DNA from: Candidatus Nanopelagicales bacterium
Lineage (GTDB): Bacteria > Actinomycetota > Actinomycetes > S36-B12
DNA: 64,000 bases
NCBI GenBank assembly: GCA_018609125.1
Contig: JABAYF010000028.1
Span: forward strand, 1 to 64,000
Reading direction: 5' to 3'
The position numbers and the translations under genes are program-made. The notes under the pieces are model-generated. The model did no database searches and was not told the DNA's origin. It saw nothing but the letters and a program-made list of their open reading frames with translations. Positions 37,124 through 45,831 of this stretch are shown piece by piece. How positions within the stretch are numbered: the first letter of the stretch is position 1; every line of letters starts with the position of its first letter.

Positions 37124-37196
37124 TGGGCGATACAGGAATCGAACCTGTGACCTCTTCCATGTCAAGGAAGCGCGCTAACCCCTGCGCCAATCGCCC
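37124..37196 (-). tRNA. tRNA-Val (GAC)
   Basis: Minus-strand cloverleaf with acceptor GGGCGA/TCGCCC, anticodon stem CTTCC/GGAAG around loop TTGACAT (anticodon GAC), and T arm with GGTTCGATTCC. CCA is not encoded. Last of a Gly-Cys-Val trio. Confidence 0.94.
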
Positions 37197-37212
37197 GTGC
37201 GGTTGTGTTACG

Positions 37213-37283
37213 AGGTGGAGACGGGATTCGAACCCGTGTAGACGGCTTTGCAGGCCGTTGCCTCGCCTCTCGGCCACTCCACC
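37213..37283 (-). tRNA. tRNA-Cys (GCA)
   Basis: Minus-strand cloverleaf with acceptor GGTGGAG/CTCCACC, anticodon stem ACGGC/GCCGT with loop CTGCAAA (anticodon GCA), and T-loop GGTTCGAATCC. It lies between tRNA-Gly and tRNA-Val. Confidence 0.94.
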
Positions 37284-37305
37284 GGAGCCCAAAAGGGTCC
37301 CTTCG

Positions 37306-37378
37306 AGCGGACGACGGGATTCGAACCCGCGACCCTCACCTTGGCAAGGTGATGCGCTACCAGCTGCGCCACGTCCGC
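37306..37378 (-). tRNA. tRNA-Gly (GCC)
   Basis: Minus-strand cloverleaf with acceptor GCGGACG/CGTCCGC, anticodon stem TCACC/GGTGA with loop TTGCCAA (anticodon GCC). It is first in transcription order of the Gly-Cys-Val cluster, an arrangement also found in mycobacteria (glyU-cysU-valU). Confidence 0.94.
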
Positions 37379-39494: not shown

Positions 39495-39566
<72 letters not shown>

Positions 39567-39606: not shown

Positions 39607-41610
39607 GTGGCTGACACCGTTCATATCACCACCGTCACTGCCGGCGAGTCCGCTGAGGTTGAGGTAGCAGCCGGATCAACCGGCCTGGACCTATTCGGCG
39701 ACGACCGCAGCATCGTCGTGGCACGAATCAATGGGGAGTTGTGCGATCTAGCCACGGTTTTGGTTGACCGCGACACGATCGAGCCTGTCCTCATTGATTC
39801 CCCCGATGGTCTCGCTGTGCTCCGACATTCCACCGCCCACGTCGCGGCCCAGGCCGTGCAGCACACCTTTCCCGATGCGAAACTTGGTATTGGCCCTCCC
39901 ATCGACAATGGGTTCTTCTATGACTTCGCTGTCGATGCGCCCTTTACGCCTGAGGACTTAAAGGTCTTGGAGAAGCAGATGCAGGTCATCATCAAGGCAC
40001 GGCAGCGTTTTCACCGAAGAATCGTGACGCGCAACGAAGCCGTCCATGAGTTGGCAGGGGAGCCGCTGAAACTTCAACTACTCGATCGTGGCAGCGACGC
40101 CGAGGTGATGGAAGTCGGCGGAAAAGAACTGACCATCTATGACAATATCGATCCTAAGACAAACGCTGTGTGCTGGGGCGATCTGTGTCGAGGTCCACAC
40201 GTGCCCCACACCGGCTACATCGCTCCCAATGCGTTCAAGCTCATGCGTACCGCGGCGGCCTACTGGCTCGGCGATCAAGCCAACGAGCAACTGCAGCGGG
40301 TATACGGCACAGCCTGGCCCGATAAGGAAGCGCTTCAGCAGTACACAACTTTCCTGGCCGAGGCGCAACGGCGTGATCACCGTCGACTTGGCGCCGAACT
40401 CGACCTCTTCAGTTTTCCCGATGAAATCGGCTCAGGGTTGGCCGTGTTTCATCCCAAGGGTGGAGTTGTTCGACGAGAGATGGAGGACTATTCGCGACGT
40501 CGCCACGAAGAGGGTGGCTACGAGACGGTCTACACCCCGCACCTGACCAAGTCGACGCTCTTTGAAACCTCCGGCCACCTTGATTGGTACGCGGAGGGTA
40601 TGTATCCACCCATGGATCTAGATGCCACCTATAACTCCGAGGGCGTCCTCACCAAACCGGCACAGCAGTACTACCTCAAGCCCATGAACTGTCCGATGCA
40701 CAATTTGGTGTTCAGTTCCCGCGGCCGTTCCTATCGCGAACTACCGCTGCGGCTGTTCGAATTCGGCACGGTGTATCGGTATGAGAAGAGCGGTGTCGTA
40801 CAGGGGCTGACTCGAGCGCGCGGATTCACCCAGGACGATGCCCATATCTACTGCACCCATGAGCAGATGCCAACTGAACTGGACAGTTTGCTCACCTTCG
40901 TCCTCAACCTGCTGCGCGACTATGGCCTCACTGACTTTTATCTAGAGTTGTCTACGCGCAACCCGGAGAAAACAATCGGTACCGAAGCTGAGTGGGATGA
41001 GGCAACCGCCGCGTTGCGTGAAGCAGCAGAGAAGCAAGACCTCGAACTGGTCCTTGACGAAGGCGGCGCAGCTTTTTATGGACCAAAGATCTCGGTGCAG
41101 GCCCGTGACGCAATCGGTCGCACCTGGCAGATGTCCACGATACAGGTGGACTTCCAACTACCCCAGCGATTCGACCTGGAGTACCAGGCCAGCGATGGCA
41201 CCAGGCAACGCCCGGTCATGATTCACCGTGCCCTATTCGGCTCTATCGAACGTTTCTTTGCCGTTCTCCTGGAACACTATGCGGGTGCGTTCCCGCCATG
41301 GCTGGCGCCAGTTCAGGTGGTATGTATTCCCGTGACCGATGGGCATGTCGACTACCTGTCTGAAGTCGCTCGTCAACTACGTGCCAAGGGGGTCCGGGTT
41401 GAGGTGGACGCATCCGACGATCGAATGCCGAAGAAGATCCGCACGGCGCAGAAGTTGAAGGTGCCCTTCATGCTGATTGCCGGGGACGACGACGTCGCGG
41501 CAGATGCCGTGTCATTTCGCTACCGCGACGGCACCCAAAACAATGGCGTGCCGATCGCCGATGCGATTGCAGAAATTGTTGCCGCAATCAGCAACCGGGT
41601 GCAGGTGTAG
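39607..41610 (+). CDS. thrS: Threonyl-tRNA synthetase
   Basis: 667 aa, GTG after AAGGAG. A TGS domain (about 1-65) is followed by the editing domain with the HxxxH pair in [12 protein letters not shown] and Cys in [12 protein letters not shown]. The class II core has motif 2 [32 protein letters not shown], and motif 3 with [13 protein letters not shown]. The C-terminal anticodon domain starts near 570. Complete and normal in length. The HIT gene starts 3 bp after its stop. Confidence 0.98.
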
Positions 41611-41612
41611 CG

Positions 41613-42170
41613 ATGAACGTGGACGACCTAGGGGACCGTTGGGAACGCTTGTGGACGCCACATCGCATGGCCTACCTGGCCGGAGAGAGCAGGCCGACAC
41701 ATGATGAGCCGGGCGAAGATTGCCCCTTTTGTCGTGCACCTGGACAGTCAGACTCGGCGGGGCTCATCGTCCACCGCGGCGAACTTGCCTACGCCGTACT
41801 CAACCTTTTTCCGTACAACTCAGGTCATCTTTTGATCTGCCCCTATCGCCATGTGCCGCACTATGACGATCTCAGCGCCGCTGAGGTGGCCGAGGTTGGC
41901 GCACTTACGCAGGTATCGATGCGCGTATTGCGCCGGTGTTCTCGAGCCCATGGGTTCAATATCGGCATGAACCAGGGAAGTGTGGGAGGTGCTGGTATTG
42001 CGGGGCACCTGCATCAACACGTGGTCCCGCGTTGGGGCGGCGACACCAACTTCATGCCCATCATTGCCAGAACAAAGACCATGGCGCAATTGCTCGGCGA
42101 AACTCAACAGTTACTCGCACAAGCATGGGTTGAGGATGAAAACCTGCCCGCCCCTCCCGCCGAGGCCTAG
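41613..42170 (+). CDS. HIT-family protein, Ap4A phosphorylase-like
   Basis: 185 aa. CPFCRA resembles a Cys-x2-Cys metal knuckle near residue 37; NLFPYNSGHLLICPYRH leads to the histidine triad HLHQHVVPRW at about 129-138. Homologues at this position (thrS-HIT-pgsA) in mycobacteria are diadenosine-tetraphosphate phosphorylases (Rv2613c). It should degrade Ap4A, a by-product of aminoacyl-tRNA synthetases, which makes its coupling to thrS sensible. Confidence 0.9.
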   Translation: MNVDDLGDRWERLWTPHRMAYLAGESRPTHDEPGEDCPFCRAPGQSDSAGLIVHRGELAYAVLNLFPYNSGHLLICPYRHVPHYDDLSAAEVAEVGALTQVSMRVLRRCSRAHGFNIGMNQGSVGGAGIAGHLHQHVVPRWGGDTNFMPIIARTKTMAQLLGETQQLLAQAWVEDENLPAPPAEA

Positions 42171-42193: not shown

Positions 42194-42979
42194 TCAGGAT
42201 AGACAGTCGCGCAGGAGCTGCAGCAGCGGATCGGTACCGAAGCCCGATGGGTACGAGGCGTGAAAGACCACCGGATACAGGCGACCACCTCGAACGGAAT
42301 CAATAAATTCTCGCTGGACAACTTCGGTGTCAAAGTGATGTCCACTAATGAGTTTCTCGATAAAGTGTGGATCAGCTGATTCGGTGGCGATGCCCTCGAG
42401 GAGCCGGTCGCGGTCATCGGTTATCAAACTGAGGTGTTCTGGCTCAGCAGGAATTACCAGGTACCTGCCATACGCGCCCGATCCTGTCGAGACGGAGTAG
42501 TCATAGATCGACTCGGTCAGTAGATCCAAAATCCCGCCCACCCCCGCTCCATCGGCATAGAGTGGTAACTGGACAGCGACGATGGAGGCGGCCTCGTCCA
42601 GGGCTGCCTGGCAGTGAGTCACGGCGTCTTCGAAATCAGCGTCGGGATCTTCCGAGTGGCTAATGACGATGATGCGCGGAACATTCCTCTCGGCACAGGC
42701 CTCCCACGCGTGAGTGGTGGCATCGTCAATATCTCCGTCGCCCTCCACCGCAGAGACAACGAAAATGACGCACGCGGGTGGATCAACCGGGGTGTTGAAA
42801 TCGGTGATCAAATGCTGGGGCTCGGTTGTCACCCACTCGATGCGCAGGCTCTCAGGCTCAATGGCAGCGAGGGTCTTCATGGAAGTGAGAAGGTCGGAGG
42901 TGTCGAAGTTTTGGGGGCCGGTTATGGCCACGCGCCTAGACTTCAGTTCCTGATCCACATACCTAGCCTGCCACGACAC
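42194..42979 (-). CDS. Pseudo-GTPase: isolated EF-G2-like G domain without P-loop
   Basis: 261 aa, tentative GTG start 42979 (another at 42958). VIFVVSAVEG...HAWEACAERNVPRIIVIS, then ADFEDAVTHCQAALDE, the LPLY and LDLL...YDYS pieces, and DRDRLLEGIATESADPHFIEKL with GGRLYPVVFHAS track the G domain of actinobacterial EF-G-like protein 2 (FusA2, Rv0120c type). The P-loop position reads GPQNFDTSD (21-29) instead of G-x4-GKT/S. The G4 NKxD position reads SHSED (107-111). Switch and DxxG segments are missing, as are EF-G domains II-V. It should not bind GTP normally. The frame is clean, so it is probably a maintained protein of unknown role. It lies antisense between the HIT gene and pgsA. Confidence 0.7.
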   Translation of the reverse strand: MSWQARYVDQELKSRRVAITGPQNFDTSDLLTSMKTLAAIEPESLRIEWVTTEPQHLITDFNTPVDPPACVIFVVSAVEGDGDIDDATTHAWEACAERNVPRIIVISHSEDPDADFEDAVTHCQAALDEAASIVAVQLPLYADGAGVGGILDLLTESIYDYSVSTGSGAYGRYLVIPAEPEHLSLITDDRDRLLEGIATESADPHFIEKLISGHHFDTEVVQREFIDSVRGGRLYPVVFHASYPSGFGTDPLLQLLRDCLS

Positions 42980-43049: not shown

Positions 43050-43685
43050 GTGCTGAATAATCCGGCGGCGCGCAAAGTGTCAGCGGTGGTGATCGATCCG
43101 GTGGCCCGTCTTCTCCTGGCGCTGCGAATCTCCCCGGATGTTGTCACCGTCGTGGGTACGGTGGGTGCGTGTGCGGGGGCCCTGGTCTTTTTCCCACGCG
43201 GTGACTTTCTCATCGGGGTGCTCGTGATTGTTGCCTTCATCGCCTCGGATCTTCTTGATGGCACCATGGCGCGTCTATCCGGGCGCGCGGGCCCGTGGGG
43301 CAATTTCCTCGACGCAACGATGGATCGGGTTGCCGACGGCTGCATTTTTGGTGCCCTGGTTTTGTGGTCGGCTGCCACCCAAAATTTCTGGGTAACCGCA
43401 GCAGCGCTTATCTGCCTCATTGGCGGGCAGGTGATTTCCTACGCCAAGGCGCGCGCCGAAGCCGTAGGCGCCACCGCCAATGTGGGCATAGCGGAGCGTG
43501 CCGAACGCCTCATTATTGTGTTGGGCGCATCCCTCTTGGCCGGCCTCGGTCTGCCCTATGTGCTCCCTGGAGCACTGATCATCCTGGCATTATTGACCGT
43601 CATCACGATCGGTCAGCGAATGTGGTTCGTGCGTGGCCAACTAAAGACACCCCGTGCGCCTGAACGGGGTGAACACAAGCCTTGA
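43050..43685 (+). CDS. pgsA: Phosphatidylinositol phosphate synthase (CDP-alcohol phosphotransferase)
   Basis: 211 aa, GTG after GAGGAG. The CDP-alcohol signature is complete: Asp67, Asp70-Gly71, Ala74-Arg75, Gly84, Asp88 and Asp92 (SDLLDGTMAR ... GNFLDATMDR). About six membrane spans surround it. In actinobacteria the enzyme at this locus joins CDP-diacylglycerol with inositol-1-phosphate to form PIP, the first step to phosphatidylinositol. The acyltransferase gene starts within its stop codon. Confidence 0.93.
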   Translation: MLNNPAARKVSAVVIDPVARLLLALRISPDVVTVVGTVGACAGALVFFPRGDFLIGVLVIVAFIASDLLDGTMARLSGRAGPWGNFLDATMDRVADGCIFGALVLWSAATQNFWVTAAALICLIGGQVISYAKARAEAVGATANVGIAERAERLIIVLGASLLAGLGLPYVLPGALIILALLTVITIGQRMWFVRGQLKTPRAPERGEHKP

Positions 43686-44605
43686 CGAAAACAAGTTTTT
43701 CCGGCCGCATTACCGACGCTAGTTTTGGCGCCGGTTGGACAATGATCCGCCGAATGCCTGAACCAGTTGCAGCGAAAGTCTTTTCGCAGGCGGGTAACAT
43801 CATGTGGCGTCGTCAAGGACAAAGTGTAAGGCAGTTGCGGGCCAATCTGGCGCGTGTCCTGCCGCCTCATCGTCTCAACGAGCTTGACGATCTCACCTAC
43901 GACGGTATTCAGCGCTACTTGCGCTATTGGCGCGAAGCGTTCCGACTACCCTCAATGTCTGCCGCCGAAGTTGTTGAAAGCTTTACGTTGGACGCCGGCT
44001 TAGACCGCCTTGACGCGATCATGGATGAAGGGAAAGGCGCGGTCATAGCGTTGCCGCACATGGGTAATTGGGATCATGCTGGCGCCTGGGCAACCGCTCG
44101 ATACGGGAGTCTCACCACTGTTGCCGAGCAGCTAAAGCCGGCCAGTCTGTATGACAGGTTCGTCGAATATCGCGAGACGCTCGGTATGGAGATCCTGCCG
44201 CTCGGTGGTACTAATACGGTGCGTGAGTTAGCCGAGCGACTGCGCCAGGGCCGACTGATCTGTCTTCTTGCCGACCGAGATCTGCAAGGCTCTGGCATCG
44301 ACGTGGAATTTTTCGGTGGAGCCGCAACGATGCCCCCGGGCCCGGCCATGTTGTCGCTGATGACCGGTGCACCACTACTTCCGGTCACGACATGGCACAC
44401 CGATGAGGGCACTTCAGCTGTTGTGGGCGCGCCGTTGCGCGTTGATCCAGTCGGAAACCGCGCAGAGCGGACCCGCGCGCTGACACAGCAGTTGGCGATA
44501 GCGTTCGAGGATTCCATCCGTGCCCATCCAGCTGACTGGCACATGATGCAGCGGTTGTGGCACGAAGACGTGCGATTGTCTCGCACACCCGGGAACCACG
44601 GATGA
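43682..44605 (+). CDS. Phosphatidylinositol mannoside acyltransferase (PatA/LpxL family)
   Basis: 307 aa, TTG start overlapping the pgsA stop as TTGA. The HxxxxD acyltransferase box is LPHMGNWDHAG at about 124-134; GRLICLLADRDLQGSGIDVEFFGG and MPPGPAMLSLMTGAPLLPV match the LpxL-like family. Homologue of Rv2611c, which adds an acyl chain to the first mannose of PIM. It sits between pgsA and pimA in a fully coupled operon. Confidence 0.93.
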   Translation: MTKTSFSGRITDASFGAGWTMIRRMPEPVAAKVFSQAGNIMWRRQGQSVRQLRANLARVLPPHRLNELDDLTYDGIQRYLRYWREAFRLPSMSAAEVVESFTLDAGLDRLDAIMDEGKGAVIALPHMGNWDHAGAWATARYGSLTTVAEQLKPASLYDRFVEYRETLGMEILPLGGTNTVRELAERLRQGRLICLLADRDLQGSGIDVEFFGGAATMPPGPAMLSLMTGAPLLPVTTWHTDEGTSAVVGAPLRVDPVGNRAERTRALTQQLAIAFEDSIRAHPADWHMMQRLWHEDVRLSRTPGNHG

Positions 44606-45831
44606 GTCGTGACGAAGGCGCTGCACCGATACCGGGGGTGTCCGGCCAACGAACTCTACGAATCGGAATTGTCTGCCCCTACGCGTGGGATGTCCCCGGG
44701 GGAGTGCAAGCGCACGTGCGCGACCTGGCAGAGACGCTCATGGATTTCGGGCATTTCGTCCGAGTGATTACTCCGGTGCAGGACCCCTCATTGCTTCCTG
44801 ACTACGCCGACGATGGGGGTCGTCCACGTTCGGTTCCCTACAACGGCTCGGTCGCGCGGCTCACCCTTGGTATGCGCGCAACGAATCACGTGCGTCGCTG
44901 GATTCGCGAGGGGGAGTTTGATGTCGTTCATGTTCATGAGCCGCTTGCTCCTAGCCTGTCATTACTCACCTGCTGGGCCGCCGAGGGCCCGATCGTGGCA
45001 ACGTGGCACTCGTCAATCGCCCGCTCGCGTGCCTTAAGTGTGGGTTATTACATTGCGCAGACCGCAATGGAAAAAGTGTCGGCACGAATTGCCGTTAGCG
45101 AGTATGCGCGTCGCACTCTGGTGGACCACATCGGTGGAGATGCGGTGCTGATTCCTAATGGAGTCAAGGTCGCAGATTTCGCCGAGGTCGCACCGTTGGA
45201 GCCACGCAATGGCCGCCGAGTCCTTTTCCTCGGGCGAACCGGTGAACCAAGAAAAGGGTTGTCTGTTTTGTTGCGGTCTTGGCCGGGGTTGAGACATAAC
45301 TTTCCCGACCTGAAGCTGGTCATAGTCGGTGCTGCTGATGAGGCTGATGTGCTAGCTCAACTGCCGGCCGAAGATGCTGCATCGCTCGAGTTTCTTGGAC
45401 CTCTCAGCGATCATGGCAAGGCCCGAGCGCTTCGATCCGCCGATGTCTACGTTGCCCCAAACACCGGCGGTGAATCCTTTGGCATCGTGCTACTAGAGGC
45501 CATGTCTGCCGGCACCCCGGTTGTGGCAAGCGATTTACCCGCATTCAGACGTGTCCTAGACGATGGCCGGACTGGTGCGGTCTTCATCAATGAAGATTCA
45601 AGCGACCTCACCCGCGTGTTGAGCCGTGTGCTGTCGTCATCGGCGGAGCGCGAATCCCTGGCCGCAGCGGGTTCGGCGCGGGCGGCTGAGTTTGACTGGT
45701 CTCACATCGCAGCCGATGTCGTTGCCGTGTACGACTCGGTAGTACAACCGGGTGAAGTCGTTAAGGTTGATTTGCGCGGGCAACTGATGGGCCGTTGGGG
45801 TCAGCGCGGGTCAACGTCAGGGGTCCGCTGA
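44602..45831 (+). CDS. pimA: Phosphatidylinositol alpha-mannosyltransferase PimA (GT4)
   Basis: 409 aa from ATG 44602, overlapping the previous stop by 4 bp. It opens LRIGIVCPYAWDVPGGVQAHVRDLAE, includes VHVHEPLAPSLSLL and the GT4 GDP-mannose site LFLGRTGEPRKGL, and the E-x7-E motif ESFGIVLLEAM. It transfers the first mannose to phosphatidylinositol on the cytoplasmic face. The next gene starts on the last base of its stop. Confidence 0.94.
   Translation: MSRDEGAAPIPGVSGQRTLRIGIVCPYAWDVPGGVQAHVRDLAETLMDFGHFVRVITPVQDPSLLPDYADDGGRPRSVPYNGSVARLTLGMRATNHVRRWIREGEFDVVHVHEPLAPSLSLLTCWAAEGPIVATWHSSIARSRALSVGYYIAQTAMEKVSARIAVSEYARRTLVDHIGGDAVLIPNGVKVADFAEVAPLEPRNGRRVLFLGRTGEPRKGLSVLLRSWPGLRHNFPDLKLVIVGAADEADVLAQLPAEDAASLEFLGPLSDHGKARALRSADVYVAPNTGGESFGIVLLEAMSAGTPVVASDLPAFRRVLDDGRTGAVFINEDSSDLTRVLSRVLSSSAERESLAAAGSARAAEFDWSHIAADVVAVYDSVVQPGEVVKVDLRGQLMGRWGQRGSTSGVR

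Follow-up and report, generated by a model that had tools for sequence, protein, structure and literature searches.

The HIT-pgsA slot and its antisense gene

In the window, the whole stretch of 64,000 nucleotides that was analysed, an open reading frame on the minus strand lies among plus-strand genes in the order thrS - HIT - [EF-G2 remnant, antisense] - pgsA - patA, with the following features (genera and families are given below by working labels, g and f).

39607..41610, plus strand: thrS, conserved neighbour upstream of HIT (sequence, locus comparison)
41613..42170, plus strand: HIT-family gene, convergent neighbour of the EF-G2 remnant (profile)
42194..42979, minus strand: ORF of the predicted EF-G2-derived pseudo-GTPase, 261 aa, GTG start (sequence, profiles and model)
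42287..42568, minus strand: G' subdomain, approximately residues 138-231, under stronger constraint than any other part in the family (alignment, constraint, model)
42647..42661, minus strand: degenerate G4 (NKxD position) SHSED, residues 107-111 (alignment to full-length EF-G2)
42893..42919, minus strand: degenerate P-loop (G1) GPQNFDTSD, residues 21-29, without Lys (alignment to full-length EF-G2)
43050..43685, plus strand: pgsA-like CDP-alcohol phosphatidyltransferase, divergent neighbour across a 70 bp gap (profile)
43682..44605, plus strand: lipid A acyltransferase-family (patA-like) gene of the PIM cluster (profile)
44557..45831, plus strand: putative PimA-like glycosyltransferase (named from sequence)

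Judged by its sequence, the antisense gene is a descendant of EF-G2. The NCBIfam profile NF009377 (EF-G2) matches residues 57-257 with E=4e-31, although the score of 108 bits is below the curated cut-off of 890, as is that of Pfam GTP_EFTU (19.9 bits against 26.5), and the best PDB chain by sequence is 9k0z_7, M. smegmatis EF-G2 on the ribosome (E=2e-18). Together with a confident EF-G-like model, these matches uphold the derivation from the EF-G2 G domain put forward in the original prediction, which had also described a frame of 261 codons free of stops and lacking domains II-V; indeed, the ORF has no internal stop and ends after the G domain. The true start is uncertain, residues 1-10 being modelled by AlphaFold with low confidence.

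On alignment with full-length EF-G2, the P-loop GPSGSGKTT reads GPQNFDTSD in the window protein, some 30-40 residues spanning switch I/G2 (the G2 motif being qqRSV in actinobacteria) are deleted, the G3 motif DTPG is replaced by TTEPQ and TKLD at the NKxD position by SHSE, so that the predicted losses of P-loop, switch/DxxG and NKxD are all seen. Of the characteristics of EFG II, the protein thus displays G-domain homology to EF-G2, but neither G1/G3/G4, G2 and switch I nor domains II-V, from which we infer that nucleotide binding and hydrolysis have probably been lost. Since domains III-V are missing, it cannot be a translocase; a translocase or GTPase-switch role is excluded by anatomy, domains and motifs both being absent. 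A separately encoded C-terminal half or domain IV-V piece of EF-G2 was sought in the window genome and not found, matches to domains III-V there being confined to the canonical EF-G, which is intact, and other translational GTPases. The stop codons of HIT and the remnant are 23 bp apart, with no DNA remnants of domains II-V between them. Promoter and terminator scans gave no result.

The scaffold itself is predicted to be retained, as had been proposed. From a 44-row alignment, AlphaFold models the window protein as an EF-G G domain plus G' (pLDDT 90.4, pTM 0.89), and a Foldseek search with this model finds EF-G (TMq 0.77), the best 50 PDB matches listed all being EF-G or EF-G paralogues. Even a 189-aa protein of g7, which lacks the P-loop strand, is modelled as the EF-G G/G' half (pLDDT 91.8), with EF-G2 on the M. 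smegmatis ribosome as its top structural match.

The same slot holds a full-length antisense EF-G2 in other Nanopelagicales families (f4, f5, f7), in the window's own family f1 (genera g3, g6, g8, g12 and two g14 members) and also in Actinopolymorpha, Segeticoccus and Phycicoccus. Full-length antisense EF-G2 is the ancestral state of the HIT-pgsA slot, and the window copy shrank in place. This reverses the earlier picture, in which a gene had been placed into the PIM locus; a newly inserted gene is rejected as an explanation, since full-length EF-G2 is ancestral at the site. The supposedly usual HIT-pgsA junction, which the gene was said to split, is found within f1 only in g11 and g13, two genera that have lost EF-G2 and in which HIT and pgsA are 24-42 bp apart by matched ends. 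Nor does the placement support a connection with the lipid operon, the position being inherited and the HIT-pgsA-patA order being unchanged in both genera that deleted the gene. The proposed survey of the gap in relatives confirmed a conserved slot, but one inherited from full-length EF-G2.

Several further observations concern the locus. In f6 genus g22 (L186, L199), full-length EF-G2 has no HIT, pgsA or thrS match alongside, and it has probably been relocated, while f6 g19 has a truncated form at the HIT-pgsA slot. Roughly 0.5 kb of extra DNA separates HIT from the stop of EF-G2 in g8 (L112-L121) and several g6 genomes (L133-L148); in g3 (L132-L156), the extra DNA is more than 1 kb long and lies between EF-G2 and pgsA. 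In-frame TGA flags in some pgsA matches come solely from stops that lie before the start codon or at the 3' end, the pgsA frames examined being free of internal stops. Upstream of thrS in the window, three minus-strand tRNA genes and one on the plus strand flank a pabB-like/aminotransferase-like pair (37124-37378, 39495-39566). Contigs titled 'Bifidobacterium breve' (L049, L056, L065, L067, L077, L079) carry a pgsA that falls among Nanopelagicales matches and are likely mislabelled MAGs, while L047, titled Rubrivirga sp., has an actinobacterial thrS-HIT-pgsA-patA block.

Truncated EF-G2 in related genomes

Relatives were collected by whole-genome search and anchoring on pgsA; the truncated protein itself, used as query against the genome contigs, retrieved none. 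About 42 genomes, belonging to 11 genera, have an open frame shorter than EF-G2 (about 190-475 aa) in the slot; about 38 of these loci are complete, two contain stretches of N and two are broken off at a contig end.

g1: 261 and 419 aa, and one cut by a contig end
g2: 325-362 aa, twelve genomes
g4 and g5: truncated, 459 aa in g5
g7: 189 and 190 aa
g8: 474 aa, one genome
g9: 228-248 aa
g10: truncated form, cut
g14: 365-408 aa, six genomes
f6 g19: 317-360 aa, ten genomes
f6 g35: 299 aa

In a marker tree (FastTree on HIT, pgsA, patA and thrS), whose deep nodes are weak, truncated forms are nested with full-length ones: g1 groups with g8 (support 0.99), truncated and full-length forms are mixed inside g8 (0.98) and inside g14 (1.0), g5 groups with g12 and g3 (0.99), and g2 and g4 form a further clade. 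Assuming that lost domains do not return, this nesting implies at least five independent truncations, the alternative being horizontal replacement of truncated by full-length genes.

The EF-G2 of one g5 genome (G007, L147) ends after about 459 aa with every G motif intact and is an apparent intermediate, in which C-terminal truncation precedes loss of the GTP switch. The sister of the window genome, G003, retains a domain II remnant. These two forms suggest an order of loss in which domains III-V go before the switches, followed by domain II or the P-loop.

Selection on the truncated proteins

The truncated family is kept by purifying selection. Across close truncated pairs dN/dS is 0.02-0.27, with g2 at 0.14-0.27, g7 at 0.07, g9 at 0.17, the C-terminal part of g4 at 0.12, the closest g14 pairs at 0.02-0.03 and f6 g19, whose dS is high, at 0.08-0.09; for comparison, pairs of full-length EF-G2 give 0.07-0.19. 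Binomial p values for the truncated pairs range from 3e-4 to 2e-74, and, since it is at silent positions of the minus-strand frame that substitutions accumulate freely, the constraint acts on the EF-G2-derived protein. Under simulated neutral drift of 0.3 substitutions per site, the window ORF stays open in 0.8% of runs.

The window copy is more divergent. It has 38% identity to that of G003, at a saturated dS of 2.07 and a dN of 0.60 (ratio about 0.29), and the comparison with G001 is likewise saturated (pS 0.75), so that it is chiefly other genera that supply the dN/dS evidence. A dN/dS well below 1, the decisive test named in the original prediction, is accordingly borne out for the family but blunted by saturation for the window copy, where, its sister comparisons being saturated, we infer selection; weak selection on this copy is possible.

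Constraint is unevenly distributed along the protein. In the comparison with G003, the G1-G3 third has a pN of 0.60, the G4 half one of 0.32 and G' one of 0.40; the N-terminal third of the window protein displays no detectable constraint (pN 0.60-0.73), and constraint looks to set in only from about residue 70 onward. Pooled across the pairs, pN/pS amounts to 0.25 for G1-G3, 0.24 for the G4 half, 0.11 for G', 0.16 for G5 and 0.21 for domain II. Of the positions at which at least 90% of full-length EF-G2 proteins agree, the window protein keeps 6/32 in G1-G3, 12/23 in the G4 half, 15/22 in G' and 4/7 in G5. Throughout the truncated set P139 and H182 are invariant and G149, L153 and L193 nearly so, all of them in G'. 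In f6 g19, the best-kept stretch begins ahead of G', at the G4-side helix, and covers that helix and the initial part of G'; in L188 and L189-L191, the segments RADFDE...LPID.DDE...DPEHIA.TSSAREDLF are far better kept than the remainder, including the former nucleotide site.

A possible role without the GTP switch

The window gene is very probably a maintained pseudo-GTPase. Decay, with the frame open by chance on the way to deletion, would be compatible with the complete loss of EF-G2 in g11 and g13, with the divergence from G003 at saturated silent sites and with an N-terminal third that looks unconstrained; it is nevertheless quite unlikely given the low dN/dS in close truncated pairs of other genera, the open frames in about 38 complete loci, the compact and confidently predicted fold, a codon-position GC (0.64/0.43/0.66) resembling that of the neighbouring genes and truncations that end just past the G domain in unrelated genera (261, 248, 189 aa). 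Retention for regulation of the pgsA-patA-pimA operon, as a protein or as an antisense transcription unit, would explain a divergent gene 70 bp from pgsA in a conserved slot, but is very improbable: the slot is the ancestral EF-G2 position, constraint falls on the protein reading frame, HIT-pgsA-patA is intact in genomes without the gene and g3 has extra DNA between EF-G2 and pgsA.

For the maintained protein, the reading we moderately favour is an in-place EF-G2 remnant working as a nucleotide-independent binding module through G', with bL12 as its likeliest partner. Domains II-V, the switch regions and the nucleotide motifs of full-length EF-G2 have gone, and what is very probably kept is a folded protein; its active surface would be made up of G' and the half of the G domain next to it and would need no nucleotide. 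The likeliest contact would be made through G' with the C-terminal domain of ribosomal protein bL12, by which the protein might occupy or modulate the ribosomal stalk outside the translocation cycle. That G' is the working surface is somewhat probable, even though its constraint could be purely structural, while bL12 as the partner is a tentative proposal by analogy: the acidic (negatively charged) G' region of EF-G makes contact with L7/L12, and EFG II conserves this region, its G' tip being more conserved than that of EFG I (PMC3150367). In complete truncated members the two G' helices are still acidic (net -3 to -9); as the proteins are acidic throughout (-28 in 262 aa), this helix is not specific evidence for bL12.

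The same acidity would suit a scaffold that binds a partner other than the stalk, such as canonical EF-G, an alarmone enzyme or RNA, as would the conserved stretch of f6 g19, according to which the surface may exceed the bL12-facing helix; we consider this possible though not likely. Some members might instead be reduced regulators that bind guanine nucleotide without hydrolysis, as nucleotide sensors, since most g14 members, and g10 in similar form, keep GxxxSGKT-type P-loops and TKLD, and the 459-aa g5 protein has all motifs. However, P-loop Lys and NKxD are missing in the window protein and in other g1, g2, g4, g7 and f6 g19 members, and switch I and DxPG even in g14, which makes this reading unlikely. 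A generalization of the binding-module reading, that small nucleotide-independent ligands of the ribosomal stalk have evolved recurrently in freshwater actinobacteria from EF-G2 trimmed to G/G', as GTP-free regulators of factor recruitment, is rather doubtful at present.

The window protein shares common descent, the G/G' fold and, in many actinobacteria, the slot with actinobacterial EF-G2/FusA2 (EFG II; M. smegmatis, PDB 9k0z), but consists of domain I only and is devoid of G1-G4, whereas full-length EF-G2 has five domains with conserved G1, G3, G4 and G5 (PMC3150367). According to a passage in PMC3832671, citing Seshadri 2009, M. smegmatis EF-G2 has no ribosome-dependent GTPase activity, and a non-GTPase role of EF-G2 may therefore, by analogy, predate the trimming. 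This repeated natural deletion removes the translocation domains and the GTP switch while selection continues to act on the G' region; a function of EF-G2 that does not depend on the switch is thereby set apart from its GTPase, and G' becomes the place to look; that EF-G2 is repeatedly cut to its front end in freshwater actinobacteria, with the remainder preserved, points to a job free of the GTP switch. In the literature searched, with limited coverage, no truncated EF-G-derived pseudo-GTPase was found; a survey of translational GTPases kept only proteins that reached two thirds of the usual length and had G1, G3 and G4 intact (PMC1780047), filters by which proteins of the window type would have been removed. 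With pseudo-GTPases in general the window protein has in common a predicted G-domain fold that selection probably retains after loss of the nucleotide motifs. Bacteroides EF-G2 (fusA2; PDB 8dmf) is also a specialised EF-G paralogue beside canonical EF-G, but is full-length and belongs to a separate EFG II branch; it is induced on carbon limitation (PMC6989115).
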